This document shows, piece by piece, positions 6,565-38,691 of a stretch of 54,106 nucleotides of DNA. The position numbers and the translations under genes are program-made. Below the pieces are notes generated by a model. The model worked only from the letters and a program-made list of their open reading frames with translations, had not been told where the DNA came from and searched no databases. The DNA comes from Pseudomonadota bacterium (GTDB taxonomy: Bacteria > Desulfobacterota > Desulfovibrionia > Desulfovibrionales > Desulfovibrionaceae): assembly GCA_018817515.1 (NCBI GenBank), contig JAHIUD010000092.1:1-54106 (forward strand), written 5' to 3'. Position 1 is the stretch's first letter. Each line of letters begins with the position of its first letter.

Positions 6565-7433
6565 CCGAGCCCGCCCTTCGCCGCCAGGCCGCGCGCCAGA
6601 TCATCGAGGCATACGGCTACTCCGAGCGGCGGGCTTGTCAGCTGATTGAACTCAACCGCAGGACGCTGCGGCGTATTCCGCAAGACCGCGACGTGGCTCT
6701 GCGCAAGCGTCTGCGGGAGTTGGCCGATGAACGCAGGCGGTTCGGGTGCCCCAGGCTCTATCTGCTGCTGCGCCGCGAGGGCCTGGTAGTGAACCACAAG
6801 CGCGTTGAGCGCCTGTACCGGGAAGAGGCGCTGTCATTGCGCCTGAGGCCAAAACGCAAGCGCCAGAGCCACCTGCGAGTGGTCCAGCCAGCGCCCACAG
6901 GTCCGAACGAGCAGTGGGCCATGGACTTCGTGAGCGACAGCCTGGAGAATGGCCGCAGGATAAAGGTGCTGACGATCATCGATTTGTGGGACCGCCGCTG
7001 CCCTTGGCTCGAAGCGGACTCGTCGATCCCTGGCGAGGGCGTGGTGCGGGTGCTGGAGCAATTGCGCCAGCGTGGCGAATGCCCGAAACACCTGCGCAGC
7101 GACAACGGGCCGGAGTTCACGGGCAAAGCCCTGGACCAGTGGGCGACCAGCGCCGGGGTGCAACTGGAGTTCATCCGGCCCGGCAGACCGATGGAGAACG
7201 GCCATGTGGAGAGCTTCAACGGTAAGTTCCGCGAGGAATGCTTGAACGCCCATGCGTTCCGGTCCATGGCTGAGGCCAGGGATATCATTGAGGCTTGGCG
7301 GCAGGACTACAACACGGCCCGGCCACACAGCTCACTTGGCGGCTTGGCACCAGAGGAATACGGAAGAGCCATGAATGAGGAACATCAGACCGGCCAGAGT
7401 CCAAACTTACGCTTGGTATACTCGGCGGGGTAG
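6561..7433 (+). CDS. IS3-family transposase OrfB (DDE integrase)
   Basis: The 290-residue protein has the HTH_21-like N-terminal part (YGYSERRACQLIELNRRTLRR) and an rve integrase core. The catalytic residues are visible in AMDFVSD, LRSDNGPEF and GHVESFNGKFREE, and the C-terminal YNTARPHSSLGG is typical. The length is normal and there is no internal stop. Because the paired OrfA is truncated, an active OrfAB fusion is unlikely from this copy. Confidence 0.92.
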   Translation: MTEPALRRQAARQIIEAYGYSERRACQLIELNRRTLRRIPQDRDVALRKRLRELADERRRFGCPRLYLLLRREGLVVNHKRVERLYREEALSLRLRPKRKRQSHLRVVQPAPTGPNEQWAMDFVSDSLENGRRIKVLTIIDLWDRRCPWLEADSSIPGEGVVRVLEQLRQRGECPKHLRSDNGPEFTGKALDQWATSAGVQLEFIRPGRPMENGHVESFNGKFREECLNAHAFRSMAEARDIIEAWRQDYNTARPHSSLGGLAPEEYGRAMNEEHQTGQSPNLRLVYSAG

Positions 7434-10054: not shown

Positions 10055-10064
10055 GGGCAGGGAC

Positions 10065-12859: not shown

Positions 12860-12861
12860 GG

Positions 12862-13611
12862 GTGCGCAAACGGATCATCATCATCGGCGCCACCTCGGCC
12901 ATGGCCGAACGCTGCGCCCGCCTGTGGCTGGCCGAAGGCCCGGCGGATTTCGTGCTCGTCGGTCGTGATTTGGCCAAGACCGAGCGTGTGGCCATGGACC
13001 TGCGCGTGCGCGACCCCAAGGCCGGCATCCGCGCCCTTGCAGCGGACTTCCGCGACCCGGCGGGCATTCGCGCCCTGGCCGACTGCCTGTGGAGCCAGGG
13101 AGCTCCGGACCTCGTGCTTATCGCCCACGGGCTTCTGCCGGACCAGCAGGCCTGCCAGATTGATCTGTCCAGTTGCGAGGAGGCGCTGCTAGTGAACGGC
13201 GTTTCGCCTGCGCTCTTCGCCGAGGCCTTCGCCGGGCACATGGAGCGCACGGGCGGCGGCACGCTTGTCCTCATCGGCTCCATCGCGGGCGACCGCGGCC
13301 GCAAGACAAACTACGTATATGGCGCGGGCAAGGGGCTGCTTACGCGCTATGCCCAGGGGCTGCAGCACCGGCTGGCCGCAACGGGCGTTGCTGTGGTGCT
13401 CATCCTGCCGGGACCCACTGACACGCCCATGACCGCGCATCTGAAAGGACAGGGCGGCCTCGGCATGGCCGATGTGGACGCCGTGGCGCGGGCCATTGTG
13501 GCGGGCGTGGCGAAGAAGCTTCCGGTATGCTATGTGCCGGGCAAGTGGGCGGTCATCATGATGGTCATCCGGCATCTGCCCCGGTTCATCTTCAACAAGC
13601 TGAACATCTGA
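12862..13611 (+). CDS. dprE2: Decaprenylphosphoryl-2-keto-erythropentose reductase homologue (DprE2)
   Basis: The frame starts with GTG two bases after the dprE1 stop and encodes a 249-residue short-chain dehydrogenase. It has an N-terminal nucleotide-binding motif (IIIIGATSAMAE) and a catalytic YGAGK (Y-X3-K) preceded by IGSIAGDRG. The C-terminus ends in a hydrophobic and basic stretch (VIMMVIRHLPRFIF) that could hold it at the membrane, as in mycobacterial DprE2. With DprE1 it completes epimerisation of ribose to arabinose on the lipid carrier. Confidence 0.88.
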   Translation: MRKRIIIIGATSAMAERCARLWLAEGPADFVLVGRDLAKTERVAMDLRVRDPKAGIRALAADFRDPAGIRALADCLWSQGAPDLVLIAHGLLPDQQACQIDLSSCEEALLVNGVSPALFAEAFAGHMERTGGGTLVLIGSIAGDRGRKTNYVYGAGKGLLTRYAQGLQHRLAATGVAVVLILPGPTDTPMTAHLKGQGGLGMADVDAVARAIVAGVAKKLPVCYVPGKWAVIMMVIRHLPRFIFNKLNI

Positions 13612-17070: not shown

Positions 17071-18339
17071 GAGACCGCTGCAAGGCAAATCTCGAAGTTT
17101 TTGCTTCTAATCATCAGAGATGTTTGCTATATTCGCCCCATCGCAAGCGATGGAGGCGACGATGAAAGAGCGCACTTCACCCCGGCCGAATATCACCGAC
17201 TATGTTGCTGACCTGAGAAGGAAAAAGCGCCCAACGTTCCTTGATGACATCGAGCAGATCGTCGACTGGCATCCGCTTGAGAAGTTTTTGCGCCGCAAGC
17301 TTCGCCGGAACAAAGACGCCGTCGGCAACCCCGCATATCCCCCGCTGCTCATGTTCAAAATCCTTGTGCTCCAGCGCTGGTACAACCTCAGCGACGAGGC
17401 CCTTGAAACGTCGCTCTATGACCGGATTTCCTTCGCCAGATTCACGGCCCTGTCGCTTGAAGGCGACGTCCCGGACGCCACGACCATCTGCCGTTTCAGA
17501 TCCAGCCTAGCCGAGCGGGATCTTCTGACAAAGCTGCTCGGGCTCCTCAACCGGCAGCTCGAAGCGAGGGGCCTCCTGGTCCGCGAGGGTGCCATCGTCG
17601 ACGCCACCGTGGTCATTTCCTCCAGGCGGCCAACCAAGATCATCGACATCATGCCCGAAGACCGCGAAGAGGACGAGGACAACGACATGAGCGCCACCGT
17701 CAGCTACTCCGACGACACCGAGGCCGCCTGGCTGCGCAAGGGAAACAAGTCCTTCTACGGGTTCAAGGTCCACGCGGCCACGGATTCTCGCTACGGCTTC
17801 ATCCTTGGCGGCCATGTGACCCCGGCCAACCGCTCCGACACCGGAGAGTTCGAGCGTCTGGTCCTGGAGGCGGACGTGCCGCCCAAAAGCTATGTCTTCG
17901 CCGACAAGGGCTACACCAGCAAGGCCAACCGGGAGACGTTGGTCGGCCTGCGCCTCAAGGACGGCATCATGCACAAGGCGGCCAGGAACAGGCCGCTAAC
18001 CGACCTGGAGCGCCTGGACAACCGCTTGGTGAGCAAGCGGTGCGGGCGACAGTGGAGAGGGGCTTCGGGACCCTCAAACGGCTCTACGGATTTGCACGAA
18101 GTCACCACGTGGGCATGGCCAAGGTCGATATGGAGTTTCACCTCAATGCCATGGCTTTCTATCTGAAGAAGGGCCTGCGATTTTGGACTTGCTGAGGCAG
18201 TTGTGCGCCCTGTGAACACGAAAAGGGCCTGCATAAGGCTTCAAGGGGCCGAAAAGGCCAGCCGGGAAGGCTGACCAGACGGGCTGCAGGAAGCAAATCA
18301 GGCATGGAAATGGCTGGCGCTCGATTGTGCAGCGGTCTC
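17071..18339 (+). mobile_element. IS5-family insertion sequence
   Basis: Ends are marked by a 12-bp inverted repeat, GAGACCGCTGCA at 17071-17082 and its complement at 18328-18339, giving 1,269 bp. The single transposase gene is frameshifted near its 3' end. No target duplication is evident (GCTA before, GGTT after). The element abuts the IS3 remnant on its left, so it either inserted into that IS or arrived by recombination. Confidence 0.88.
17162..18195 (+). pseudogene. IS5-family transposase, frameshifted near the C-terminus
   Basis: ATG 17162 follows GGAGG by five bases. The protein has the IS5 N-terminal domain (RKKRPTFLDDIEQIVDW, LQRWYNLSDEALE) and the DDE_Tnp_1 core (GAIVDATVV, FADKGYTSKAN). 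After RLVSK at about 18030, two extra bases throw the frame off and the original frame ends at 18166. The expected C-terminus (ATVERGFGTLKRLYG to LKKGLRFW), with the catalytic glutamate, continues in another frame to 18195. As written the enzyme lacks its last active-site residue. Confidence 0.85.
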
Positions 18340-19819: not shown

Positions 19820-21319
19820 ATGAACTCGAACAAACTCACGACTCTCGCCAAATTGACAGAGTCGGTCGGCCCGACCCAGCGGGAAGGCAAAAAGATATTT
19901 CTGAGCTACGGCAGCTATGACTTCCTGCATATCGGCCACATCCGACATTTGCGGCAGGCTCGCGCCCTGGGCGACCTCCTTGTCGTGGCGCTTGCGCCAG
20001 ACTGTAAGCTCACCAGCTGCATGCTCCCGGTTCCCATCGAGATGCGGGCTGAGGCCATGATCCACCTCGACTTTGTCGACTTCGTCTGCACGGACGCTGA
20101 GGATCTGCGGGTTGCGCTGACCCAGCTGCAGCCTACCGGCTACGCGGCCATGGACGACAACGGCGGCCAGCCCTGCAACGAGGACGAGCAAGCCCTATGC
20201 GACGAGATGGGCATCCCGCTGGTGAAGACAGGCGGAATTCACTTTGACTCAACCGTGGTCATCAACCAGTCCTTGGCCAGCTTCAGCGATGAGGCACGCG
20301 AATACCTGGATCTGTTTAAGTCGCGGTTCTCACTGGACGATGTGAACCACACCCTCGACGCCATGAGCGGGCTTAAGGTCGCGGTCATCGGAGACACCAT
20401 AATCGATGAATACTGCTATTGTAGCCCACTGGGCGCCTCATCCAAGGACCCCATCTTGGCCCTGCGCTACCAGTCGAGCGACATCTTCGCGGGCGGCATC
20501 GTGGCCGTGGCCAACCATGTGGCCAACTTCGCCACCGAGGTGGACATGTACACTGTGCTGGGCGACCACAGCTCCTATGAGAGTTTCGTCCGCGGCAAGC
20601 TCAACCCGCGCGTGAAGCCGACCTTCATGGTCCAGAAGAACTCGCCCACGGTGCTCAAACGGCGCTATGTGGAAGGCTACACCCAAAACAAGCTCTTCGA
20701 GATCTACTTCATGGAGGACATCGGGCTCGACGCCGACACAGATGCCCAGTTCCGCCAGTTGCTTGAAAAAGAGTTGCCGAACTACGACATCGTCATCGTA
20801 GCCGACTTTGGCCACGGTGCCATCAGCTCGGCCACCCGCGAGGTGCTGACCGACCATTCGCCCTTCCTGGCCTTGAACGCCCAGGCCAACTCCGGCAACC
20901 GCGGTTTCCACACGGTCACCAAGTACAAGCGCGCCGACTACGTGAGCATCGCCGAGCACGAGGTGCGGCTGGAAATGCGCGACATGCGCGGTTCGGTAAG
21001 AAAGATGATTGACACCCTGGCGCCCAAGCTCTCCTGCTCCAACTTCGTGGTGACCCGCGGCAAACGCGGTAGCCTGATCCGCGGCAAGAACGAACAGCAC
21101 ATCGAGGTGCCGGCCTTCGCCCGCAAGATCATCGACCGCGTCGGCGCGGGCGACGCCTTTCTCTCGGTGACGGCCATGGCGGCCAGGCTCGACACGGCGC
21201 CAGAGCTTTTGTGCTTCATCGGCAACATTGTGGGTGCGCTGGCTGTTGAGATTCTGGGCAACCAGAAGTCCATCGACAAGGCGGGCGTGAAAAGCTACGC
21301 GGCCACGCTGCTCGGCTAA
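19820..21319 (+). CDS. RfaE/HldE-like protein with reversed domain order: nucleotidyltransferase then PfkB kinase
   Basis: ATG 19820 follows AAGGAA; an upstream ATG at 19733 (GGAGACC) is possible but the intervening sequence is AT-rich and looks like leader. Of 499 residues, about 25-150 are a cytidylyltransferase-like domain with the HXGH motif (FLHIGHIRHL). About 175-499 are a PfkB sugar kinase (VAVIGDTIIDEY, VVTRGKRGS, DRVGAGDAF). E. coli HldE has the kinase first, so the order is inverted here. In heptose pathways the kinase phosphorylates a sugar phosphate and the other domain activates the 1-phosphate. GmhA-like, transketolase and HAD genes follow, suggesting a heptose or other long-chain sugar nucleotide. 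Confidence 0.85.
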   Translation: MNSNKLTTLAKLTESVGPTQREGKKIFLSYGSYDFLHIGHIRHLRQARALGDLLVVALAPDCKLTSCMLPVPIEMRAEAMIHLDFVDFVCTDAEDLRVALTQLQPTGYAAMDDNGGQPCNEDEQALCDEMGIPLVKTGGIHFDSTVVINQSLASFSDEAREYLDLFKSRFSLDDVNHTLDAMSGLKVAVIGDTIIDEYCYCSPLGASSKDPILALRYQSSDIFAGGIVAVANHVANFATEVDMYTVLGDHSSYESFVRGKLNPRVKPTFMVQKNSPTVLKRRYVEGYTQNKLFEIYFMEDIGLDADTDAQFRQLLEKELPNYDIVIVADFGHGAISSATREVLTDHSPFLALNAQANSGNRGFHTVTKYKRADYVSIAEHEVRLEMRDMRGSVRKMIDTLAPKLSCSNFVVTRGKRGSLIRGKNEQHIEVPAFARKIIDRVGAGDAFLSVTAMAARLDTAPELLCFIGNIVGALAVEILGNQKSIDKAGVKSYAATLLG

Positions 21320-21338
21320 GGTTACGGGCGCGCCAGGT

Positions 21339-22382
21339 ATGAACGTCATTCTGCTTGCGGCGGGCTTGGGAACACGCCTTCTGCCCCTTACTGCGGTGCT
21401 GCCCAAGTGCCTAATGCCGATCCACGGTCGTCCGCAGCTGGAATACTGGCTGCGCGCGCTCTCCCAAACACAGGGCGCGTTTGAGGCGGACATAGTTGTG
21501 AATACCCACTATTTGCCGGAGCTGGTGCGTGAGTATCTGGAGCATAGCCCCTGGGATGGGCGCGTGCGTCTGGTTCACGAGGCGGAGCTTCTGGGCACCG
21601 GCGGCACACTTCTTGCCAATTCTTTCCCGTCCGGCGGGCCAGTGATGCTGGTGCATGCGGACAACCTGTGCAGCGCGGATCTGCAGGCCTTTATGGCTGC
21701 CCACGCGAACCGCAGCCCCGGAACCGTCATGACCATGATGAGCTTTCGCACTGACGCACCGAAAACCTGCGGCATCCTCGATTTGGACAAACGGGGGGTA
21801 GTGCGGGCCTTTCATGAGAAGGTGGCGGATCCTCCTGGCAATCTGGCTAACGCCGCCGTTTACATCGTGGAGCCAGAGGTGACGGCTTACATCGCCGGGC
21901 TTGGCAGGAGGGTGGTGGACTTCAGCACTGAAGTCATCCCGCATTTTCTGGGGCGCATCCAGTCCTGGGAGAATGACGGGTACCACCGTGATATTGGGAA
22001 TGTGGACAGCTTTCTGGCCGCGCAGGAGGAATTTCCCGTGCCTGAGTCTAACCCCGTGGTCGAGCCGGACGGCTGGCTGCGCCTCTGCAGAAAGGACGGC
22101 GGCGCACTACCGCGCGCTTTTGCAAAAGCCCTGGCGCAGGCGCTGGACCTACCCATGGTGAAGGGCAATGTTACGCCGCCCAAGGACCCAGTCCTGCTGC
22201 TTCTGCCGGATGATCGCTCGCTGCTGGACAGAGCTGCGGGACGGAGGCAGTTCGCCCTTGCATCAGGATCGATAATAGCGATAGAATACTCAGCCGGCGA
22301 ATCCGCACAGACCGCTTTGCCACTGTACGCATGGGGTTGGCAGGTTATTACCATCTGCGCCGTAACAAAAGAACGTCTTTAA
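21339..22382 (+). CDS. Sugar-1-phosphate nucleotidyltransferase with C-terminal extension
   Basis: Residues 1-230 are a classic nucleotidyltransferase: LLAAGLGTRLLPLT (G-X-G-T-R-X9-P-K), LVHADNLC and an ELLGTGGTL segment. The remaining 110 residues (from about VVEPDGWLRLC) do not look like the usual left-handed beta-helix acyltransferase tail. They may be a cupin-like or regulatory addition, but I do not recognise the fold. The enzyme joins NTP and a sugar 1-phosphate. The RfaE-like protein upstream already carries a nucleotidyltransferase domain, so the cassette may make two activated sugars, or one of the two has changed role. Confidence 0.82.
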   Translation: MNVILLAAGLGTRLLPLTAVLPKCLMPIHGRPQLEYWLRALSQTQGAFEADIVVNTHYLPELVREYLEHSPWDGRVRLVHEAELLGTGGTLLANSFPSGGPVMLVHADNLCSADLQAFMAAHANRSPGTVMTMMSFRTDAPKTCGILDLDKRGVVRAFHEKVADPPGNLANAAVYIVEPEVTAYIAGLGRRVVDFSTEVIPHFLGRIQSWENDGYHRDIGNVDSFLAAQEEFPVPESNPVVEPDGWLRLCRKDGGALPRAFAKALAQALDLPMVKGNVTPPKDPVLLLLPDDRSLLDRAAGRRQFALASGSIIAIEYSAGESAQTALPLYAWGWQVITICAVTKERL

Positions 22383-22388
22383 GGAGAC

Positions 22389-22967
22389 ATGATGCTCGAC
22401 CCCATAGCCTGGCTTGATACCCTTGGAACCATCAGCAAAACCACCAAATGCCGCCTCGGCGGCGAGAACGTGGCGCTGACGGCTGGCTACGAGCGCATTG
22501 CCGAGCTTTTTCGAGCCACGCGCGGGCGGGAAGGCAGCATTTGGTGGGTGGGCAACGGCGGCAGCTGCGCCATCTGCTCCCATTTGGCCCAGGATGCTTT
22601 GAACAAGCTCGCCGTGCGCTCCCAGGTACTCAGCGACGCCTCCCTTATGACGTGCATGGCCAACGACTTTGGCTATGATGAGGTGTATTCCCGACCGTTG
22701 AGACGGCTGGCCCGCCCCGGCGATACCGTGGTAGCCATTTCCAGCTCTGGTAATTCGCAAAATATAATTAATTGTGCTGACTTGGCTTTGGAAATGAATC
22801 TCGGGCTCATCACCCTCTCGGCCTTTGATGCGAGTAACAAGCTGTGGAACCATAAGAGCGACGTCGCCCTATTCCTGCCGCTGGCCCTGTATGGCCTAGC
22901 GGAGGTCGGACACGAGGCGCTTCTGCACGCCGCCATCGAATGCCAATACCTAACTGAAAAAGGATAA
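22389..22967 (+). CDS. GmhA-like SIS-domain phosphosugar isomerase
   Basis: The 192-residue protein has a single SIS domain: WWVGNGGSCAICSHLAQD is the phosphate-binding entry, VVAISSSGNSQN the second motif, and the end contains HEALLHAAIE. GmhA enzymes convert sedoheptulose 7-phosphate to D-glycero-D-manno-heptose 7-phosphate. AAGGAGAC lies just upstream. It is the fourth gene in the cassette and is clearly different from the second GmhA-like gene at 53092. With a transketolase pair three genes later, heptulose phosphate is the likely substrate, but other ketose phosphates are possible. Confidence 0.85.
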   Translation: MMLDPIAWLDTLGTISKTTKCRLGGENVALTAGYERIAELFRATRGREGSIWWVGNGGSCAICSHLAQDALNKLAVRSQVLSDASLMTCMANDFGYDEVYSRPLRRLARPGDTVVAISSSGNSQNIINCADLALEMNLGLITLSAFDASNKLWNHKSDVALFLPLALYGLAEVGHEALLHAAIECQYLTEKG

Positions 22968-22980
22968 CAAGGAACCATCC

Positions 22981-23970
22981 ATGAACGAAAAAGTCGTCGT
23001 CATCGGGAGCAACTCCTTTTCCGGAGCCCATTTTTGCGATTACTGCCTGGAGCAGGGGCTTTCGGTCATCGGCATGAGCCGCTCCGACGAGCCACACCCG
23101 GCGTTTCTGCCCTACAAGAAGCGCGTCGGCGCGCCTTTCACCTTCATGAAGCTCGATCTGAACCATGACTTGGATCGGATGGTCGGGGTCATGAACGCCG
23201 AGAGGCCCGACTATGTGGTGAACTTTGCCTCTCAGTCCATGGTGGCAGAGAGCTGGGCTAACCCCGAGCACTGGTTTCAGACTAACACCGTGGCCACCGT
23301 GGCCTTGCACGACCGCCTGCGCAAGCTGGATTTCATTAAGAAGTACGTGCACATCTCGACCCCAGAAGTATATGGCACCTGCCAGGGCCTGGTGCCGGAG
23401 AGCGCGAACTACAATCCCAGCACGCCCTACGCCGTTTCCCGCGCCGCAGGCGACATGAGTCTCATGAGTTTTTACAAAGCTTACAAATTTCCCGTGGTGT
23501 TCACACGCGCGGCCAATGTCTTTGGCCCCGGCCAGCAACTCTACCGCATCATCCCGCGCACCATCCTATTCTTTCTCACTGGTCGCACGCTGCAGCTCCA
23601 CGGCGGCGGCCACTCGGTGCGCTCCTTCATCCACATCCGCGATGTTTCCGACGGCACCCTCAATATTGCTCGCAATGGCCCAGCGTCGGAAATCTACCAC
23701 CTGTCCACCACTCGCAACATCTCAATCCGCGAGTTGGTGGAGATGATCGCCGCACGCGTAGGCGTGAAGTTTGAGGATCATGTCGAAATTGTGAATGAGC
23801 GCCTGGGCAAAGACGCCGCTTATCTGCTGGACGCCGCTAAGGCCCGAACTACGCTGGGCTGGGCCGACCAGGTGAGCTTGGAGACCGGAATCGACGACAC
23901 CATCGAATGGGTGCGTGAGAACCTAGGCGCCCTGTCCGCCCTGAACGCGGACTATATCCACAAACCTTAA
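22981..23970 (+). CDS. NAD-dependent epimerase/dehydratase with atypical motifs
   Basis: The 329-residue extended SDR resembles sugar nucleotide 4,6-dehydratases (ISTPEVYGTC, NVFGPGQQLYRIIPR, RSFIHIRDVSDG). Two hallmark sites differ. The glycine-rich loop reads GSNSFSG, with serine in place of the central glycine, and the Y-X3-K signature is YAVSR (Tyr150, Arg154). Tyr remains, so catalysis may persist in modified form. It is followed after 24 bases by another epimerase, and the two may act in turn on the same nucleotide sugar. The product cannot be named. Confidence 0.8.
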   Translation: MNEKVVVIGSNSFSGAHFCDYCLEQGLSVIGMSRSDEPHPAFLPYKKRVGAPFTFMKLDLNHDLDRMVGVMNAERPDYVVNFASQSMVAESWANPEHWFQTNTVATVALHDRLRKLDFIKKYVHISTPEVYGTCQGLVPESANYNPSTPYAVSRAAGDMSLMSFYKAYKFPVVFTRAANVFGPGQQLYRIIPRTILFFLTGRTLQLHGGGHSVRSFIHIRDVSDGTLNIARNGPASEIYHLSTTRNISIRELVEMIAARVGVKFEDHVEIVNERLGKDAAYLLDAAKARTTLGWADQVSLETGIDDTIEWVRENLGALSALNADYIHKP

Positions 23971-23994
23971 ATTGTTTCCAAGGGAGCACACATA

Positions 23995-24936
23995 ATGCGA
24001 ATTCTCGTCACCGGCGCCTGCGGCTACATCGGCAACATTCTCGTTCCCAAGCTTCTGAAACACGGGCACGAGGTTGTGGCCGTGGACATCATGTGGTTCG
24101 GTAATATGCTTGCGGCCGCCCCCGGCCTCACCGTGGTCAAGGGCGATGTCCGCGACATGGACACCATCCCCATGGACGGTGTCAACGCCATCATTCACCT
24201 GGCTAATGTGGCCAACGACCCCTGCGGTGACCTGAACGCCAAGCTGGTCTGGGAGGTCAACGCCCTGGCCACCATGCAGCTGCTGGAAAAGGCCATTGCC
24301 AACGGCGTTTCGAAGTTCATGCTGGCCAGCTCTGGTAGTGTCTACGGTCTGAAGGACGAGGACCAGGTCACTGAGGATCTGTCCCTGGTGCCCCTGTCCG
24401 ACTACAACAAGACCAAGATGATCAGCGAGCGTGTGCTGTTGAGCTACAAGGACCAAGTTGAGGTTTTCAGCATCCGCCCGGCTACAGTCTGCGGCTATTC
24501 GCCACGCACTAGACTCGATGTTGCCGTTAACATGCTGACTATGCAGGCCCTGGTGAAGGGCGAGATCACCGTGCTTGGTGGCGCCCAGACCCGACCCAAC
24601 GTGCACATCCAGGATATTACTGATATATTTATCCATTTCCTTGGCAAGGGCCGCGAGTCCACCGGCATCTACAACGCTGGGTTCGAGAATATCTCCATTC
24701 TCGACATCGCCAATATGGTCACCGAACTGGTGCCCGCCACCATCACCATCAAGCCATCCAACGACCCACGCTCCTATCGGCTCAATTCGGACAAGCTCCG
24801 GGCCACCGGCTTTGAGCCGAAATACGGCGTGCGCGACGGCATCACCGACATCATCAACGCCTATCGCGAGGGCAGGCTAGTGGATGACGACATTCATTAC
24901 AATATCCGCACCATGAAGAAGCTTCAGGAGATCTAA
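23995..24936 (+). CDS. NAD-dependent sugar epimerase/dehydratase
   Basis: The 313-residue extended SDR has canonical motifs: VTGACGYIGN for NAD binding, LASSGSVYG, and YNKTK (Y-X3-K). RPATVCGYSPRTRLD and RPNVHIQDITD are typical of the WcaG-like group. AAGGGAG lies upstream of the start. It acts in the cytoplasm on a nucleotide-linked sugar, probably the product of a neighbouring enzyme. It sits between an atypical SDR and the transketolase N subunit in a run with gaps of only a few bases. Confidence 0.85.
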   Translation: MRILVTGACGYIGNILVPKLLKHGHEVVAVDIMWFGNMLAAAPGLTVVKGDVRDMDTIPMDGVNAIIHLANVANDPCGDLNAKLVWEVNALATMQLLEKAIANGVSKFMLASSGSVYGLKDEDQVTEDLSLVPLSDYNKTKMISERVLLSYKDQVEVFSIRPATVCGYSPRTRLDVAVNMLTMQALVKGEITVLGGAQTRPNVHIQDITDIFIHFLGKGRESTGIYNAGFENISILDIANMVTELVPATITIKPSNDPRSYRLNSDKLRATGFEPKYGVRDGITDIINAYREGRLVDDDIHYNIRTMKKLQEI

Positions 24937-24941
24937 TACCC

Positions 24942-25775
24942 ATGCTCGGCACCACGGACCAGACGCTGGCAACCATGCGCGCCGCCGCCAAAGACATCCG
25001 GCGGCAGGCAGTGCGCATGTCACACCGATCGCGCGCGGCACATCTGGGCTCGGCCATGTCTTGCGTGGACATCCTGGCCGCGGCTTATTGGGGAGTCATG
25101 CGCATCGACCCCACCGCACCCGATGATCCCGACCGCGACCGCTTTATTCTCTCCAAGGGACACGCGGCCTCGGCCCTGTTCGCCGCCTTAGCACTGCGGG
25201 GATTCTTCCCGCAGAGCGTGTTGGAGGAATACGCCCAGCCCGCGTGCCACCTGGAGGAGCACCCCACGCCGAAAGCTGCGCCGGGGGTTGAGGCGGCCAC
25301 GGGCTCCCTCGGCCACGGCCTGCCCATCGGGGCGGGCATGGCGCTGGGCGCGCGCATAGCCGGGCGGCCCACGCGGGTGTTCGTGCTCATGAGCGACGGC
25401 GAGCAGAACGAGGGCTCCGTTTGGGAGGCCGCCATGTTCATTGGCGGGCAGAAGCTCACCAACATCTGCGCTATTATCGACTTCAACCGCTGGCAGGCCA
25501 CGGGCCGTAGCTGCGAGGTGCTGGCCCTGGAGCCCCTGGCCGACAAGTGGCGGGCCTTCGGTTGGAACGTCGCCGAGGTGGACGGCCATGACGTGGGCGC
25601 GCTAGCGCTCGCCATGTCCGGCCTACCCGACCCTTCCGGCAAGCCGCTGGCTATCGTGGCCCACACGGTAAAGGGCAAGGGTGTCTCCTTCATGGAAGAC
25701 GACAACAACTGGCATTACCGAATCCCCAACGAAGACGAATTGGCCCGCGCCCTGGCCGAACTGGAGGGTGCATGA
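24942..25775 (+). CDS. Transketolase, N-terminal (TPP-binding) subunit
   Basis: The 277-residue protein corresponds to the first third of transketolase. It has the early histidine motif (HRSRAAHLGSAMSC), SKGHAASALFAAL, GSLGHGLPIGAGMA and the TPP/Mg site SDGEQNEGSVWE to DFNRWQ. The C subunit follows with an ATGA overlap, so the two form a split transketolase. Housekeeping transketolase is normally one chain. A split pair inside a sugar-nucleotide cassette suggests a dedicated role, such as making a heptulose or octulose phosphate or adding a two-carbon unit to a sugar. The acceptor is not known. Confidence 0.9.
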   Translation: MLGTTDQTLATMRAAAKDIRRQAVRMSHRSRAAHLGSAMSCVDILAAAYWGVMRIDPTAPDDPDRDRFILSKGHAASALFAALALRGFFPQSVLEEYAQPACHLEEHPTPKAAPGVEAATGSLGHGLPIGAGMALGARIAGRPTRVFVLMSDGEQNEGSVWEAAMFIGGQKLTNICAIIDFNRWQATGRSCEVLALEPLADKWRAFGWNVAEVDGHDVGALALAMSGLPDPSGKPLAIVAHTVKGKGVSFMEDDNNWHYRIPNEDELARALAELEGA

Positions 25776-26704
25776 GAAACGCGTTCGCCCGCACCATCAC
25801 CGCGTTGGCCAAGGAAGACCTGCGTATCGTCCTGCTCTCCGGCGACATCGGTAACCGCATGTTCGACGAGTTCAAGGGGCTGTTCCCGAATCGCTTCTAC
25901 AACTGCGGCGTCGCTGAGGCCAACATGACCGGCGTGGCCGCGGGGCTGGCCCTGTCCGGATTCCGCCCCGTCACGTACACCATCGCCCCCTTCAACACCT
26001 ACCGCTGCTTCGAGCAGATCCGGCTCGACCTGTGTTACCACAACCTACCTGTGGTGGTGGCTGGTGTGGGCGGCGGGCTTTCCTACGCTGGGCTTGGTGC
26101 CACACACCACTCCTGTGAGGACATCGCTTGCCTGCGCGCCCTGCCGAACATGAGCGTCTTATGCCCCGGCGACGCAGTGGAGGTGGAACTGCTGCTGACC
26201 GAGGCGGTCAGGGGCCCTGGCCCCAGCTACCTGCGTCTGGGCAAGAAGAACGAGCCCGTGCTGCACCAGACCCGTCCTGATCTCACCATCGGCAAGGCCA
26301 TCGTGCTGCGCGATGGCGCGGACGTCATGATCCTGAACACCGGCAACACCTTGCCCGAGGCCATGGGCGCAGCGGAGATCCTGTCCGCATGCGGCATCAG
26401 CGCCGGGGTGGCCAGCGTGCACACGGTGAAGCCCCTTGACCTGGACCTGCTGACCAAATGCTTCGGAACATGCAGCCTAGTGGTCACCATGGAAGAGCAC
26501 GGCAGCGCGGGTGGCCTGGGTGGTGCGGTGGCTGAATGGCTGGTCGACACACGGCTGACGCGGGACGACAACCGTGCGCCGCTCTTGCGGCTGAACACCG
26601 GCGAGCACTTCCTCTCGGCTTGTGGTAACCAGAAGAGCGCGCGGGAAAGCTGCGGGCTTTCCGCCGCCACCGCGGCAAAATCAATCGCAGCACGGCTGGG
26701 CTAG
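25772..26704 (+). CDS. Transketolase, C-terminal (pyrimidine-binding) subunit
   Basis: The 310-residue protein holds the pyrimidine-binding and C-terminal transketolase domains. LLSGDIGNRMFDEF opens it, and CGVAEANMTGVAAGLAL includes the glutamate that activates TPP. GATHHSCEDIACLRALPNM and a transketolase C domain (ASVHTVKPLDLD, EEHGSAGGLGGAVA) follow. The start overlaps the N subunit stop. It must pair with the N subunit for activity. Spacing suggests tight translational coupling and a 1:1 complex. A short G-rich tract separates it from the next gene. Confidence 0.9.
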   Translation: MRNAFARTITALAKEDLRIVLLSGDIGNRMFDEFKGLFPNRFYNCGVAEANMTGVAAGLALSGFRPVTYTIAPFNTYRCFEQIRLDLCYHNLPVVVAGVGGGLSYAGLGATHHSCEDIACLRALPNMSVLCPGDAVEVELLLTEAVRGPGPSYLRLGKKNEPVLHQTRPDLTIGKAIVLRDGADVMILNTGNTLPEAMGAAEILSACGISAGVASVHTVKPLDLDLLTKCFGTCSLVVTMEEHGSAGGLGGAVAEWLVDTRLTRDDNRAPLLRLNTGEHFLSACGNQKSARESCGLSAATAAKSIAARLG

Positions 26705-26714
26705 GGGGGGGGGC

Positions 26715-27365
26715 GTGCGTATAGGCATCGACTTCGACAACACCATTGTGTGCTACGACCAAGTGTTCCACCTAGTGGCGAGGGAACAGGGGGAAATCCC
26801 CGCTGATCTGCCAAAAACTAAGGAGAAAGTGCGCGATCATCTGCGCGGCGTTGGTCGCGAACCCGTGTGGACAGCCATGCAGGGTTACGTTTACGGCCAG
26901 CGCATGGGCGACGTTGACCCGTTTCCCGGCGTTCTGGAGTTTCTGTGTGCCTGCCACGAAAAAGGCGTGGAGACGTTCATCGTCAGCCACAAGACCAAGA
27001 CGCCCTATGCGGGCCCGCCCTTCGACCTCCACGCCGCGGCTTTGGGCTGGATGGAGGCGCACGGACTGTTTGACCCGGCGGGCATCGGGCTCCCACGTGA
27101 GTCGGTGTTCCTAGAGCCCACCAAAAAAGACAAACTTGGGCGCATCAGGAAGTTGGGCTGTACGCACTTTATTGACGACCTGCCGGAGTTTCTGGGCGAG
27201 GCGGAGTTTCCTGAGGGCGTTACGCGCCTGCTCTTCGCCCCCTCGGGTGCTTGCTCGAAAAACGCCTGCATCATCCCCTGCGGTTCCTGGGCGGAAATTG
27301 GGCAACGGCTACTCGGCGGCCCAGGGGATTCTTCAACCGGAAATCCGTCAAATAATCATGACTGA
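26715..27365 (+). CDS. HAD-like protein
   Basis: The GTG start at 26715 lies ten bases after the transketolase stop, within a G-rich run that can serve as ribosome site. The 216-residue product has the HAD nucleophile motif GIDFDNTIVCYD near its start, VSHKTKTPY as the second motif, a lysine in EPTKKDK and the acidic HFIDDLPEFL. These are the four HAD elements, so it is probably a phosphatase or nucleotidase acting on a sugar phosphate. In this cassette a GmhB-like step (removing a phosphate before activation) would fit, but it is not a close GmhB homologue. Confidence 0.78.
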   Translation: MRIGIDFDNTIVCYDQVFHLVAREQGEIPADLPKTKEKVRDHLRGVGREPVWTAMQGYVYGQRMGDVDPFPGVLEFLCACHEKGVETFIVSHKTKTPYAGPPFDLHAAALGWMEAHGLFDPAGIGLPRESVFLEPTKKDKLGRIRKLGCTHFIDDLPEFLGEAEFPEGVTRLLFAPSGACSKNACIIPCGSWAEIGQRLLGGPGDSSTGNPSNNHD

Positions 27366-28377
27366 GGACCAGCGGGACCTGGAATTGCAGGCCGAGGCCC
27401 TGGCCGTTGCGGCCGGACTGAGTGGGCCGTTTCAGCTTGAGCCTTTGCTGGGCGGACGCAACAACCGCGCCTTTGTGCTGCGCGCGGGGACATCGTGTGC
27501 CTTTTTCAAAGCCTATTTTCGCCACCCGGACGACCCACGCGACCGGCTGCGCTCCGAGTTGGCGTTTTTGGCGCATGCCGAGACTATGGGCATCGAGGCG
27601 GTAACGCGCGTACTGGGGCACAACCGCGAGGCTGGGCTGGCCCTGTTCAGCTTCGTTCAGGGCCGCAGGCTGCACCCGGGTGAGGTGAGGTGCCCACAAG
27701 TGGCGGCCGCGCTAGATTTTTATCTGGCCCTGAACACGCTCCCGGCGGAGCTGCCCAACGCTTCCGAGGCCTGCTTTTCGCTGAGGCAGCACCTGGACTG
27801 TGTGGAGCGCCGGGTGGGGCGGCTTGCGCGTGCGGCTGCCAAGGGCCGCATGCGCGCCGACGCGGCCGGGTTTGTGGCAACGGATCTTTCCCCTGCGTGG
27901 GAGCGACTGCGCAGAAGCATCCTGGCCGATGCGCCAAAGCTTCTGGGCACGGACTTTGACGCGCCGCTAGCCCCGGACCTGCGCCGGGCATCTCCCTCGG
28001 ACTTCGGGTTTCACAACGCGCTCCTAACCTCGGAAGGGGCGCTGGTGTTTCTGGACTTCGAGTACGCGGGCCTCGATGATCCGGCAAAGATGGTTTGCGA
28101 CTTTTTTTGCCAACCGGAGCTGCCCGTGCCGCAGAAATTGTGGTCGCGTTTCCTTGCGCACGCCGCCGAAGCCTCGCCGGATGACGCGGGCCTGCCTGTT
28201 CGAGCGGCGCTGCTGCTTCCGGCCTACCGGCTCAAGTGGTGTTGCATCATGCTGAACGATTTTCTCGCCCTGGGCGCGGCCCGGCGCGACTTTGCCAGGA
28301 ACGGCGAGACTGGGTCGAGATGCGACCGGCAGTTGGCCCTGGCGCGGCGCACGCTCAATTTCCACATAAAGCACTGA
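27358..28377 (+). CDS. Aminoglycoside phosphotransferase/choline-kinase-like protein
   Basis: The 339-residue protein overlaps the HAD gene by eight bases. The kinase fold is indicated by LLGGRNNRAFVLRAG near the N-terminus, a catalytic loop reading SPSDFGFHNALL and the metal-binding LVFLDFEYAGLDDPAKM. The loop has SPSDFGFHN instead of the usual HGD-X4-N, keeping the aspartate and asparagine. Family members phosphorylate small alcohols, amino sugars or choline. It may phosphorylate the sugar made by this cassette. The ribosome site is weak, so it probably depends on translation of the preceding gene. Confidence 0.75.
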   Translation: MTEDQRDLELQAEALAVAAGLSGPFQLEPLLGGRNNRAFVLRAGTSCAFFKAYFRHPDDPRDRLRSELAFLAHAETMGIEAVTRVLGHNREAGLALFSFVQGRRLHPGEVRCPQVAAALDFYLALNTLPAELPNASEACFSLRQHLDCVERRVGRLARAAAKGRMRADAAGFVATDLSPAWERLRRSILADAPKLLGTDFDAPLAPDLRRASPSDFGFHNALLTSEGALVFLDFEYAGLDDPAKMVCDFFCQPELPVPQKLWSRFLAHAAEASPDDAGLPVRAALLLPAYRLKWCCIMLNDFLALGAARRDFARNGETGSRCDRQLALARRTLNFHIKH

Positions 28378-28387
28378 GGTGACGAAC

Positions 28388-29056
28388 ATGGCCGAGATTG
28401 ATTTCCTTTCCCCTTTGCACAAGGCCACCACGCGCGACTACTTGGCGCGCGTGAACGACCCTGAGTTCCCCAAACCCAAGGCTGCCGAACTGGCCAAGAA
28501 GTGGGGCTATGACTACTGGGACGGCGACCGGCGCATTTGCTACGGTGGCTATCGCTACATGCCGGGCCGTTGGCAGCCGGTGGCGAAGGGCCTCGTGGAC
28601 CACTACGGGCTAAAAGCCGGGGACAAGATCCTGGACATTGGCTGCGGCAAGGGCTTCCAGCTTGTCGAACTCACGCGCGTGGTACCGGGCCTTGAGGTCT
28701 ATGGGTTGGACATCTCTAATTACGCGCTTGCCAATGCCCACGAGGACGTGCTCGACCGGCTTACCCTTGGCAACGCCAACGCACTGCCCTGGCCGGACAA
28801 CTACTTTGACTTCGTGTTTTCCATCACCACGTTGCACAACCTGCACAACTACGACATGGATAAGGCCCTGCGGGAGATGGAGCGCGTGGGCAAGAAAAAA
28901 TATCTGTGCGTTGAGTCATACCGCAACGAGACCGAGAAGGCCAACCTGCTCTACTGGCAGGTTACCTGCGAGGCCTTCTTCACCCCGGAGGAATGGCTTT
29001 GGTGGTTCAAGACCACGGGCTACACCGGCGACCACAGCTTCATCTATTTTGAATGA
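28388..29056 (+). CDS. SAM-dependent methyltransferase
   Basis: ATG 28388 has GAGGTG upstream. The 222-residue protein has a class I methyltransferase core with motif I ILDIGCGKGFQLVEL, then YGLDIS, NANALPWPDNYFD and a SITTLHNLHNYD strand. It would transfer a methyl group to a sugar, or to a sugar nucleotide, in the cytoplasm. It belongs to the 18.6-31 kb cassette. The N-terminal 70 residues (HKATTRDYLARVND, YWDGDRRICYGG) are shared by sugar-cluster methyltransferases I have seen, but I cannot name the substrate. Confidence 0.85.
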   Translation: MAEIDFLSPLHKATTRDYLARVNDPEFPKPKAAELAKKWGYDYWDGDRRICYGGYRYMPGRWQPVAKGLVDHYGLKAGDKILDIGCGKGFQLVELTRVVPGLEVYGLDISNYALANAHEDVLDRLTLGNANALPWPDNYFDFVFSITTLHNLHNYDMDKALREMERVGKKKYLCVESYRNETEKANLLYWQVTCEAFFTPEEWLWWFKTTGYTGDHSFIYFE

Positions 29057-29108: not shown

Positions 29109-29981
29109 ATGACCATTCGCGACCAGCTCTCCCTTGTCGTCGGGGCCGATGGCGGCATCGGTCAGGCCCTTTGCGTTGCGTTGCGCAAGGACGGGCGCTA
29201 CGTGGCGGGCACTAGCCGTCGGGACGGCTCGCCGGAGATGTTGTACCTTGACCTGGCGGGCGATCTTGGAGTCTTCGCTGCGCCCGCTGGCGTTGGCCAA
29301 GCCTTTCTGTGCGCGGCCGTAACCGCCACGGCCCAGTGCCGCATGGATCCAGCAGGAACCGCCTGCGTGAACGTGGACGGAACCGTGCGCCTGGCCGAGC
29401 AGCTTGTCCGGGCCGGGGTCTTCGTGGTATTCCCCTCCACCAACATGGTTTTTGATGGTGCGCTGCCGCGCCGCGCGGCGGATGACGCCCGTTGCCCGCT
29501 CGCGGAGTATGGCCGTCAGAAGGCCCGGGCCGAGGAACTCCTGCTGGCACTCGGCGGCCAGGTAGCCGTGGTCCGGCTCACCAAGGTGCTGGCCCCCGGT
29601 GTGACGCTCTTTTCCGGTTGGGCTGAGCAACTCCAGGCCGGCCGCATCATTCGCCCGTTTTCCGACATGCCCATGGCTCCGGTGCCCTTAGATTTCGTGG
29701 TGGGGGCGCTTCTGGCCATCGCCGCAAGCCGCAAGGGCGGGCTGTGGCAGATTTCGGCCAGCCGCGACGTGAGCTACGCCGAGGCGGCCTTGCGTCTTGC
29801 TGCCCGCTTGGGCGCGGACCTGGGCCTTGTGCGGCCGGTGAGCTGGCGTGAGGCCGCGCCGGACATGGAGCATGTGCCCGCGCACACCAGCCTGGACGCC
29901 TCGCTCCTGGAAAAAGAACTGGGCCTGGCCGCACCGGACCCGCTGGCTTCACTGGATCAAGCATACGGAGCGTACGAATGA
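29109..29981 (+). CDS. RmlD-like sugar reductase (SDR)
   Basis: The 290-residue protein resembles dTDP-4-dehydrorhamnose reductase and related NAD(P)-binding enzymes. It has VVGADGGIGQALC at the N-terminus, FPSTNMVFDG in the middle and YGRQK as Y-X3-K. It would reduce a keto group on a nucleotide sugar, as the last step after a dehydratase or epimerase such as 22981 or 23995. AGGAAAGG precedes the start. Its stop overlaps the start of the next methyltransferase (ATGA), so the two are translationally coupled. Confidence 0.8.
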   Translation: MTIRDQLSLVVGADGGIGQALCVALRKDGRYVAGTSRRDGSPEMLYLDLAGDLGVFAAPAGVGQAFLCAAVTATAQCRMDPAGTACVNVDGTVRLAEQLVRAGVFVVFPSTNMVFDGALPRRAADDARCPLAEYGRQKARAEELLLALGGQVAVVRLTKVLAPGVTLFSGWAEQLQAGRIIRPFSDMPMAPVPLDFVVGALLAIAASRKGGLWQISASRDVSYAEAALRLAARLGADLGLVRPVSWREAAPDMEHVPAHTSLDASLLEKELGLAAPDPLASLDQAYGAYE

Positions 29982-31132
29982 GTGATTTCGTTTCGCAGGG
30001 TGGCCCACAGACTCTCTGCCACAGTTGCGGCTCCGACACGATGGAGCCCGTCCCCGGTCTTGAGGACCTTGGGCTCGTGACCTCGGACTGCCGCCCCTGG
30101 GACGGTCGACGTTTCCTTTCCTGGTGCCCCTGCTGCGGCCTGGTGCAGAAGTGCGTGGACCAGGACTTTCATGCCGACTGCTGCCGCATCTATGACAGCT
30201 ACGCAGTGTACCACCAGTCCGGCGGGCAGGAGCAGAAGACTTTCGGCGCGGACGGCGCGGGCGTGGCCCGCAGCGAACACCTGCTGCGGGGGCTGCAGTC
30301 CCACCTGCCCTTGCCGGACTCCGGCAGGCTGCTCGACGTGGGCTGCGGCAATGGGGTGCTGCTCAAGTCCTTCGGCGCGCTGAATCCCGCTTGGACGCTT
30401 TGCGGCCTGGACCTGGACGACCGCAGCCGCGAGGTCGTCAAGGCTCTGCCGGGTGTGGAAGACTTCTATTGCTGCGACCTCATGGAGGTTCCCGGCAGCT
30501 TCGACGTGGTGAGCATGATGCACTGCCTGGAGCATGTTCTCGCGCCCGTGGAGTTCCTGCGCAAAACGGCGCGACTGCTGGAGCCGGGAGGACTGCTGCT
30601 GGTGGAGGTGCCCGACTTCGCCACGAATCCCTTTGATTTGGCCATAGCCGACCACTGCACGCATTTTACGCCCGAGACCCTGAAAGGAGTTGCCCGGCGG
30701 GCAGGATTCGAGCCTGTGCTCCTGGAGCGAGGGCTGGTCAGCAAGGAGCTGACCCTGCTGGCCCGTTTGACATCCGCCCCGAACCCGACCTGCAAGATGA
30801 CCGATTCACGCAAGGAAGCGTTGCGCGCGCTGGACTGGATGACCAGGACGCTTCGGGTTGCGGCGGAGATACCCCCCCAAGAACTGGGCATTTTCGGCAC
30901 GTCCATCGCCGGGGTGTGGTTGTTCAATTGCCTGGGGCGCAAGGCCGAGTTTTTCGTGGACGAAGACCAGAGCCGGGTTGGGCACCCGCTCTTTGGTTTG
31001 CCGGTTGTCAGCCCGTCCCAGCTGCAGTCCGGGCAAACCGTGTTTCTTAGTTTCCCTCCGGCCATAGCCAAGAGCATCGCCGCCCGCATGGCCGACAGTC
31101 CTGCGCGGCTCGTCCTCCCGCCGGAGCGATAA
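29978..31132 (+). CDS. SAM-dependent sugar methyltransferase with N-terminal zinc-ribbon-like region
   Basis: The 384-residue protein starts with paired cysteines (LCHSCGSD and WCPCCGL), resembling the N-terminal zinc-binding part of sugar C-methyltransferases. A methyltransferase core follows (LLDVGCGNGVLLKSFG, LDLDDRS, MMHCLEHVLAP). A C-terminal Rossmann-like domain of about 100 residues (LGIFGTSIAGVW, FFVDEDQSRVG) matches the methyltransf_14-type tail. This three-part layout recalls TylC3/NovU-like C-methyltransferases that act on 4-keto sugars. It ends the tightly spaced 13-gene run. Confidence 0.82.
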   Translation: MSDFVSQGGPQTLCHSCGSDTMEPVPGLEDLGLVTSDCRPWDGRRFLSWCPCCGLVQKCVDQDFHADCCRIYDSYAVYHQSGGQEQKTFGADGAGVARSEHLLRGLQSHLPLPDSGRLLDVGCGNGVLLKSFGALNPAWTLCGLDLDDRSREVVKALPGVEDFYCCDLMEVPGSFDVVSMMHCLEHVLAPVEFLRKTARLLEPGGLLLVEVPDFATNPFDLAIADHCTHFTPETLKGVARRAGFEPVLLERGLVSKELTLLARLTSAPNPTCKMTDSRKEALRALDWMTRTLRVAAEIPPQELGIFGTSIAGVWLFNCLGRKAEFFVDEDQSRVGHPLFGLPVVSPSQLQSGQTVFLSFPPAIAKSIAARMADSPARLVLPPER

Positions 31133-37638: not shown

Positions 37639-38691
37639 ATGAGCAGACCAGTGAAAACCAAGGCGGCAATTTTGGTGGAGCAGCGCGCTCCCCTGGTGGT
37701 TGACGAGATCACCCTTCCCGAGGAATTATGCTGCGGGCAGGTGTTGGTGCGGGTGCTGTACAGCGGCATTTGCGGTTCGCAACTGGGCGAAATCGAGGGA
37801 GTGAAAGGCCCAGATAAATATTTACCGCACCTGCTCGGCCATGAAGGTTCGGGTGAGGTGCTGGAGGTCGGCCCGGGGGTACGTCATGTTCACCCTGGCG
37901 ACAAGATCGTGTTGCACTGGCGCAAGGGCCCAGGCATCGACAGCGTGGCCCCGGTGTATTCCTGGAATGGCAAGAAGCTTAACGCTGGCTGGGTCACCAG
38001 CTTCAACGAACACGCCGTGGTTTCTGAAAACCGTCTGACACGCTTGCCAGAGAATTTCGACCTCCGCTTGGCGCCGTTGCTGGGCTGTGCCGTGACTACC
38101 GGCTTTGGCGCGGTGGTGAACACCGCCGCCCTCAAACTGGGCGAGTCCATTGTTGTCCTAGGTGCCGGGGGCGTTGGTCTGAACGTCATCCAGGCTGCCG
38201 CACTCACCACGGCCCACCCCATCGTGGCAGTGGACATATTTGACAACCGTCTAGAGTTGGCGCGCGCCATGGGCGCCACGCACACCATCAATTCTCGCGG
38301 AATCGATCTCACTCACACCATCCGCGATATCATTGGCGCGGCTGGCGCGGACGTGGTGGTGGATAACACAGGAAACACAGGCCTCATTGCCATGGCATAC
38401 GGCCTCACAGCCGGACAGGGACGCACCGTTCTCGTAGGGGTGCCCCGCGCCTCAGAGGACATCACCCTCCACTCTCTGCCACTGCACTTCGGAAAGATTC
38501 TCACCGGAACCCACGGAGGAGATGGCGATCCGGGGGTCGACATTCCTCGCTATGCGCGCTTGGCCCAGAGCGGGCGGCTCAGCCTGGCCCCCCTGGTGAC
38601 GGAGAGCTACAGCCTGGATGAGATAAACACGGCCATCGCACGCATGAAAAGCGGTGAGGTCGCCGGACGCTGCGTCATCGAGATGTGCTGA
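37639..38691 (+). CDS. Zinc-type alcohol dehydrogenase (MDR family)
   Basis: The 350-residue medium-chain dehydrogenase has the catalytic zinc residues in YSGICGSQLGE (Cys) and LLGHEGSGEV (His-Glu). The NAD-binding motif is VVLGAGGVGLNV, with VAVDIFDNR for adenine ribose recognition. The four cysteines of the structural zinc lobe are not present where expected; the segment reads LHWRKGPGIDS. The closest look is to class III-like or sugar/polyol dehydrogenases. A G-rich GCAGGGTGAG lies upstream. It could make or use a sugar-linked aldehyde or ketone in this locus. Confidence 0.82.
   Translation: MSRPVKTKAAILVEQRAPLVVDEITLPEELCCGQVLVRVLYSGICGSQLGEIEGVKGPDKYLPHLLGHEGSGEVLEVGPGVRHVHPGDKIVLHWRKGPGIDSVAPVYSWNGKKLNAGWVTSFNEHAVVSENRLTRLPENFDLRLAPLLGCAVTTGFGAVVNTAALKLGESIVVLGAGGVGLNVIQAAALTTAHPIVAVDIFDNRLELARAMGATHTINSRGIDLTHTIRDIIGAAGADVVVDNTGNTGLIAMAYGLTAGQGRTVLVGVPRASEDITLHSLPLHFGKILTGTHGGDGDPGVDIPRYARLAQSGRLSLAPLVTESYSLDEINTAIARMKSGEVAGRCVIEMC

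Follow-up and report, generated by a model that had tools for sequence, protein, structure and literature searches.

Split transketolases, which are encoded as two chains, have been proposed to carry out hydroxyacetyl transfer in the miharamycin and amipurimycin antibiotic clusters with in vitro proof still pending, and the accessible part of a 2025 review names 13 further candidates, all from streptomycetes (PMC12247030). The same part of the review describes pyruvate dehydrogenase E1 (PDH-E1)-like pairs by which keto sugars of antibiotics acquire acetyl branches, and states that the use of ketone (sugar) acceptors by transketolases awaits experiment (PMC12247030). By the available text, the split transketolase of Carboxydothermus hydrogenoformans is the only transketolase of that organism (PMC7661550), and the Campylobacter enzyme Cj1427 oxidises C4 of GDP-heptose to give a 4-keto nucleotide heptose (PMC10680097). 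The two-gene transketolase of Brachyspira is mentioned, in the excerpts at hand, only as a pentose-phosphate enzyme. Here we analyse a ten-gene run containing a split transketolase on a 54,106-nucleotide contig of a bacterium assigned to the Desulfovibrionaceae (GenBank assembly GCA_018817515.1, contig JAHIUD010000092.1; C38 in our numbering). The contig in its entirety is referred to as the window and is part of a draft genome of 3.6 Mb. A description of this cassette was not found in the open-access literature searched. With moderate confidence, we propose from sequence comparisons that it is a nucleotide-sugar cassette within a surface-glycan island, in which the split transketolase would put a two-carbon ketol unit on a keto or aldehydo nucleotide sugar.

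The two transketolase genes overlap by 4 bases on the + strand. TkN (24942..25775; PF00456; 6yak, 247 bits) encodes the thiamine diphosphate (ThDP)/pyrophosphate-binding half and TkC (25772..26704; PF02779/PF02780; 6yaj, 182 bits) the pyrimidine plus C-terminal half, the layout of a split-gene transketolase. In the numbering of the Escherichia coli enzyme, used throughout, the window pair keeps the ThDP-activating Glu, H100, H473, H26 and H261, with SDG replacing GDG in the ThDP motif, but its acceptor site departs from the canonical set, with Gly at H461, Leu at D469, Lys at R520 and Ala at R91. We compared it with relatives from other loci and with 16 hand-picked stretches with split-transketolase matches from the genomes of 15 other loci. 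In the resulting alignment of 62 TkC sequences, Gly was present at the H461 position in 53, none of which kept D469 (47 have Leu), while eight sequences (from seven of the 16 stretches, plus the Carboxydothermus chain) kept both residues and one (L135) was mixed. These two residues serve to define the groups; the findings are the placement of the cassette sequences, the other positions and the agreement with the tree. All 40 sequences from loci found through the first gene of the cassette, kinNT, fell within the Gly type. At R520, Arg was found in 8 of 8 canonical sequences and in only 3 of 53 Gly-type sequences (44 have Lys). R91 in TkN was Arg in all nine canonical sequences, including the organism's own full-length transketolase, and in none of 57 cassette-type sequences (two more have gaps), and the TkN motif GSLGQG was changed to GSLGHG in all 58 readable cassette-type sequences. 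The catalytic Glu, H473 and R358 were kept in 53 of 53 Gly-type TkC sequences; among cassette-type TkN sequences H26 was kept in 58 of 59, H261 in 58 of 59 (one gap) and H100 in 52 of 59. In a quick IQ-TREE analysis, rooted by choice, the 53 Gly-type sequences were set apart by a branch with a Shimodaira-Hasegawa-like approximate likelihood ratio of 100; the internal grouping of the eight canonical sequences was unsupported, and L141 and L136 formed long branches. Four partial TkC sequences (L031, L123, L046 and L075), kept outside the tree and the counts, likewise lacked the His and the Asp. Judged by eye, at least two other cassette families (at least 100 bits) lay around seven of the eight Gly-type stretches, the exception being L141, and around one of the seven canonical stretches (L142, an E1 pair).

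In published work on the E. coli enzyme, H461 is associated with the substrate phosphate, and activity on unphosphorylated aldehydes increased in the H461S and R520V variants (PMC3657141). The variant S385Y/D469T/R520Q came from work that shifted the enzyme away from phosphorylated aldehydes towards others, and R91 is described as the pairing partner of D469 (PMC5073344). Donor binding is described as involving H66, H100, G114 and H473 (PMC7661550, available portion). Together with these roles, the residue losses suggest that the acceptor side of the enzyme has changed, while the catalytic Glu and most of the donor residues stay. Judged by these residues, the split transketolase of the cassette is a specialised type in which several residues predicted to grip the acceptor phosphate have been lost.

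The genome has further transketolases. A full-length enzyme with a canonical site, carrying THDSFYVGEDGPTHQ, is encoded on contig C59, and rules out the window pair as the housekeeping transketolase. Contig C54 holds a second cassette (L005) in identical gene order, with proteins 60-92% identical to those of the window (kinNT 63, NTP2 60, SIS 68, SDRa 88, SDRb 92, TkN 83, TkC 84, HAD 77, APH 62 and MT10 87%). A third split transketolase, likewise of the Gly type, lies on C87 (L006, 4726-17237) next to SDR-, NTP- and GHMP-kinase-like genes and radical SAM genes. An earlier model-made reading of the window, the sequence-only reading, had described a parallel sugar cassette that includes a transketolase of its own, to be doubted if the pair were the organism's sole housekeeping enzyme or if the genes did not co-occur in other genomes; the canonical enzyme and the second cassette answer the former point.

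Co-occurrence was examined from both ends of the gene run. kinNT served as bait in 59 relatives and, in the form of a 12-row profile, in a genome collection, from which the best 80 of the 297 relatives found were used; the window, L005, 14 further loci and these 80, minus nine duplicates, gave 87 loci. Counts made with hidden Markov models cover those 60 kinNT-anchored loci for which 8 kb or more of downstream sequence was available. In these, SIS was found in 39, SDRb, TkN and TkC in 38 each, a DHS/ArgZ-C-like gene in 34, MT10 in 30, APH in 24, HAD in 19, and the PDH-E1-like pair (E1a) and NTP2 in 12 each. A transketolase was present in 24 of 24 APH loci, 19 of 19 HAD loci, 28 of 30 MT10 loci and 16 of 18 loci carrying an rmlD-like gene, and HAD, APH, MT10 and transketolase occurred all together in 14 loci; neither HAD nor APH was detected in the 22 kinNT loci without transketolase. 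In the reverse direction, a 16-row HAD profile was searched against 395 genomes drawn from the phylum. Matches were rare, in 8 genomes at nine places, with 387 giving no match at 1e-10. Seven HAD-anchored loci beyond the genome's own two contained APH (7/7), TkN (7/7), TkC (6/7), MT10 (6/7) and kinNT (6/7), the exceptions being L126, whose contig stops within TkN, and L123, a 4.2 kb contig and the source of the kinNT gap; L122 and L126 lie on contigs that the first set had sampled as L061 and L071, leaving five HAD-anchored loci that are new. The same module is thus recovered when the search starts from the HAD end, and the gene set is kept together beyond chance, which answers the latter point of doubt raised with the sequence-only reading. 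In two loci the tie to kinNT is looser: L143 carries the module without a kinNT match and L144 has only a weaker one (206 bits), with a full kinNT elsewhere in both genomes (L070 and L084). In L067, from the cultured Desulfobacter vibrioformis DSM 8776, the two transketolase genes are separated by 3.6 kb.

The same 60 loci bear on what the transketolase does. SIS was found in 25 of 38 transketolase loci and in 14 of 22 loci without one (p=1), i.e. the transketolase is unrelated to the isomerase. SDRb or SDRa was present in 30 of 38 transketolase loci and in 10 of 22 others. The PDH-E1-like pair occurred without transketolase in eight loci and with it in four, and neither APH nor HAD was found beside it in any of its 12 loci. 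Since the transketolase is independent of SIS, its acceptor residues are lost and eight loci hold the PDH-E1-like pair in the absence of a transketolase, we favour hydroxyacetyl transfer over the making of ketose phosphates.

The ten genes, defined by an open reading frame map and a domain scan, all lie on the + strand at 19820-29056 with intergenic gaps of at most 24 bases, and include every gene that the sequence-only reading had placed in a nearly gapless run. The RfaE-like gene of that run is present as kinNT (19820..21319), with a domain order opposite to that of HldE: an N-terminal cytidylyltransferase-like domain (PF01467, 30-95) precedes a C-terminal PfkB/HldE-like sugar kinase (PF00294, 186-486). 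Against the HldE model kinNT scored 116.7 bits (cut-off 521), outside HldE membership. HxGH is kept in its nucleotidyltransferase half and the (D/N)KG, KG(S/A)(D/E) and FSST motifs are altered, i.e. three of the four, as also in the sister copy and L028; the domain is probably degenerate. By a fixed motif rule it was degenerate or absent in 12 of the 87 loci. Three of these (L038, L039 and L040) have HPGI for HxGH in the fused domain and an adjacent separate nucleotidyltransferase-type sequence with intact motifs. NTP2 (21339..22382; PF00483, E 3.1e-24), a sugar-1-phosphate nucleotidyltransferase of the NTP_transferase family, lay on the same strand within 3 kb in another 7 of these 12 loci and in 5 of the 75 others. 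The Fisher p of 8e-5 cannot be read literally, since independent events are too few: in a kinship-aware test the association was not significant, with three events on supported branches, six at most, and a median p of 0.5. Against strict replacement, no substitute is apparent for the degenerate domain of L108, the contig of L117 is short (4.8 kb), and NTP2 lies near an intact domain in L044, L047, L076, L060 and L086. It is nevertheless likely that NTP2 replaces the same step as the lost domain of kinNT, in which case the PfkB kinase and NTP2 would share one activation route.

Typically directly 3' of kinNT in the relatives, and absent from the window, is the DHS/ArgZ-C-like family of 325 residues (L030, 16427-17404, and 33 other of the 60 loci), for which the "DHS-like" part of the name is our own assumption. 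It is nearly unannotated, with a weak ArgZ-like C-terminal match below cut-off and no PDB match at E 0.01; it tends to exclude SDRb (both in 14 loci), and a SPASM radical SAM gene accompanies it in 24 of 34 loci.

SIS (22389..22967; PF13580), a GmhA-like sugar-phosphate isomerase, scored 69.5-72.9 bits against the GmhA models (cut-offs 209-276) and so falls outside GmhA proper. SDRa (22981..23970; PF16363) is a dTDP-glucose-4,6-dehydratase-like short-chain dehydrogenase (SDR) whose closest solved structure is 6bi4, a dTDP-glucose 4,6-dehydratase. SDRb (23995..24936) is an SDR whose sole PDB match at 1e-25 is 6vo6 (E 9.7e-32), which we take to be Cj1427; SDRb may be kin to Cj1427, this being its best match within a broad family.

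Downstream of the transketolase genes, the HAD-superfamily phosphatase candidate (26715..27365) and the APH/choline-kinase-fold small-molecule kinase (27358..28377; PF01636) overlap by 8 bases. The HAD label of the sequence-only reading is borne out by the catalytic residues, D6, D8, S91, K140 and D155 being invariant in 16 aligned sequences and D154 nearly so; at E 0.001 the protein gave no Pfam or NCBIfam match to support a family name. Its AlphaFold model (predicted local distance difference test, pLDDT, 92.7) best matches 3bwv, deoxyribonucleotidase-like, at a TM (template modelling) score of only 0.55, and this modelled fold points to HAD phosphatases. In APH, D215, N220 and D233 are invariant in 12 sequences, and the model (pLDDT 92.2) matches choline kinases, LicA, APHs and N-acetylhexosamine 1-kinase. 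The last of these, first met at rank 25, led us to consider an AmgK-MurU-like route with APH as the anomeric kinase together with NTP2. In L123 (553-2265) HAD and APH form a single 571-residue frame, a fusion that suggests successive steps. The methyltransferase gene MT10 (class I; 28388..29056; PF08241) extends the gene run and is a member of the conserved set. It is followed by an rmlD-like reductase gene (29109..29981, +; PF04321), a frequent accessory, and by a second, accessory methyltransferase gene (29978..31132, +; PF13489; 60% identity to the copy in L005). A zinc alcohol dehydrogenase gene (37639..38691, +; PF00107; 78% in L005) is an accessory in the cassettes of several relatives, but it lies 8.6 kb downstream in the window, which makes its membership of the cassette uncertain.

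We envisage that SIS, the PfkB kinase of kinNT, HAD, APH and NTP2 would activate a sugar, and that SDRb and/or SDRa, to judge from their relatives, would introduce a keto group into the nucleotide sugar by oxidation. The split transketolase would then transfer a hydroxyacetyl unit from an ordinary donor, e.g. hydroxypyruvate or a ketose phosphate, to this keto sugar as a non-canonical acceptor. The resulting sugar, branched or lengthened, may be finished by reductases and methyltransferases.

Several observations weigh against this proposal. Some phosphate or anion binding may remain, given that every row retains R358 and most have Lys at R520. Only 3 of 8 canonical rows retain H473, as opposed to 53 of 53 cassette rows, and its presence therefore speaks only weakly for an ordinary donor. 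The tight bond of HAD and APH to the transketolase, which with the L123 fusion suggests phosphorylated intermediates near the transketolase step, is the main point that a simple branch-adding scheme leaves unexplained. The SDR labels are broad and the assignments coarse; the presence of an SDRb, SDRa or DHS/ArgZ-C-like gene in 38 of 38 transketolase loci is not distinctive, since 20 of the 22 loci without transketolase have one too. Moreover, the co-occurrence p-values ignore kinship, every one of these loci was selected by kinNT, and the likeness to the miharamycin-type transketolases comes from published description rather than sequence comparison. An unphosphorylated aldehyde acceptor would also leave identical residue marks. 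In a reading that we consider unlikely, the acceptor is a sugar, either unphosphorylated or nucleotide-bound, to whose terminal aldehyde the enzyme joins the two-carbon unit, making a linear octose- or nonose-type sugar with no branch: aldehydes are the normal acceptor class of transketolases, and a zinc alcohol dehydrogenase gene occurs in 14 of the 60 loci. A dedicated aldehyde-forming enzyme was not identified, and the best solved relatives of SDRb and SDRa presumably act on carbons of the ring rather than on a primary alcohol.

Somewhat less probable again is the route that the sequence-only reading had put forward, in which a transketolase-made heptulose or octulose phosphate would pass through isomerisation by SIS to activation by kinNT. 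SIS and an HldE-like kinase do lie within one gene run, HAD could act as GmhB and R358 is kept, but a SIS match is absent in 13 of the 38 transketolase loci, H461 and D469 are lost in 53 of 53 sequences and the genome already has a canonical transketolase. The two-carbon branch, which that reading had offered as an option, fits better with the independence of SIS, the acceptor losses and the PDH-E1-like pairs, and its statement that the product is not predictable from known pathways still stands. We regard as improbable a third scheme, in which the HAD, APH, transketolase and MT10 genes only happen to lie next to the nucleotide-sugar genes and their products make a separate small building block for decorating the glycan, e.g. 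a ketol bearing a phosphate or methyl group. It would account for HAD and APH tracking the transketolase and not kinNT, for the HAD-APH fusion and for the modules in L143 and L144, but kinNT sits beside the module in six of the seven HAD-anchored loci, the seventh being the 4.2 kb contig. The most remote of these readings, and a disfavoured one, is that of a known ADP- or GDP-heptose pathway of the ordinary kind, beside which a housekeeping transketolase happens to lie: the resemblance to GmhA, HldE and HddC holds at the family level, but the NCBIfam models for these proteins score far under their cut-offs, and separate kinase-like and nucleotidyltransferase-like matches lie elsewhere in the genome, on C50 and C31, as does the canonical full-length transketolase on C59. 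The parallel with heptose activation drawn from the sequence is accordingly one of logic.

Other parts of the window also carry sugar genes. A second activation set on the contig, at 51399-53697, consists of a SIS-like gene and of genes for an HddA-like kinase and a MurU-like nucleotidyltransferase, neither of which reaches its curated cut-off. At 9957-13611 a UbiA prenyltransferase with a HAD domain (PRK08238, above cut-off) stands in a row with DprE1-like and DprE2-like genes, whose matches stay below cut-off; we take the group to resemble the polyprenyl-phosphate arabinose route of mycobacteria. At the contig start (33-1055), near sugar genes, a HAD C-terminal part is continuous with a transaldolase (TIGR02134, above cut-off). 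Transposase or integrase genes at 3384-4067, 6561-7433, 17120-18166 and 38806-39918, in and around the glycan island, suggest that the island is a mosaic.

Transketolase-type or PDH-E1-like pairs occupy an equivalent gene setting across the loci, in bacterial groups other than streptomycetes. More tentatively than for the window itself, we suggest that a rare but widespread split-transketolase subfamily may build hydroxyacetyl-branched or two-carbon-extended nucleotide sugars for surface glycans in several phyla, and that PDH-E1-like pairs may make the acetyl version in sister loci. If so, undescribed branched or long-chain surface sugars would be present in Desulfovibrio-type bacteria, planctomycetes and others, transketolase-made sugar branches would extend beyond streptomycete antibiotics, and the enzymes may be biocatalysts for chiral tertiary alcohols. 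With its residue signature, its dozens of homologues, of which some are not independent, and the neighbouring genes for candidate enzymes that would make the substrate, the cassette makes the ketone-acceptor question directly testable.

Compared with the described systems, the cassette shares with the GmhA-HldE-GmhB and GmhA-HddA-GmhB-HddC pathways the succession of isomerase, kinase, phosphatase and nucleotidyltransferase, but it has a reversed fusion, altered nucleotidyltransferase motifs, other kinase and phosphatase families, and an additional transketolase, SDRs and methyltransferase. To the GDP-heptose C4-dehydrogenase of Campylobacter, an enzyme with a ping-pong mechanism that uses alpha-ketoglutarate in C4 oxidation, SDRb would be linked through its best structural match, as a member of one of many SDR families. 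The Carboxydothermus split transketolase (6yaj/6yak) is the closest solved structure for both window halves and is alike in its two-chain layout and catalytic residues, but it keeps the H461 and D469 positions, whereas the window pair is specialised and has a canonical full-length transketolase in the same genome. By the published description available, the miharamycin and amipurimycin enzymes are likewise split transketolases among sugar-modifying genes with an oxidoreductase (PMC12247030); they belong to antibiotic clusters, whereas the window type is found in glycan-type loci with HAD, APH, MT10 and kinNT. The PDH-E1-like alphaKADH2 enzymes and YerE of yersiniose are, in the same source, ThDP enzymes that put a two-carbon unit on a keto sugar (PMC12247030). 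They use pyruvate-derived acetyl units, YerE being a member of another superfamily, and the predicted PDH-E1-like pairs of the eight loci without transketolase may be the counterpart of alphaKADH2 in the gene setting described here.

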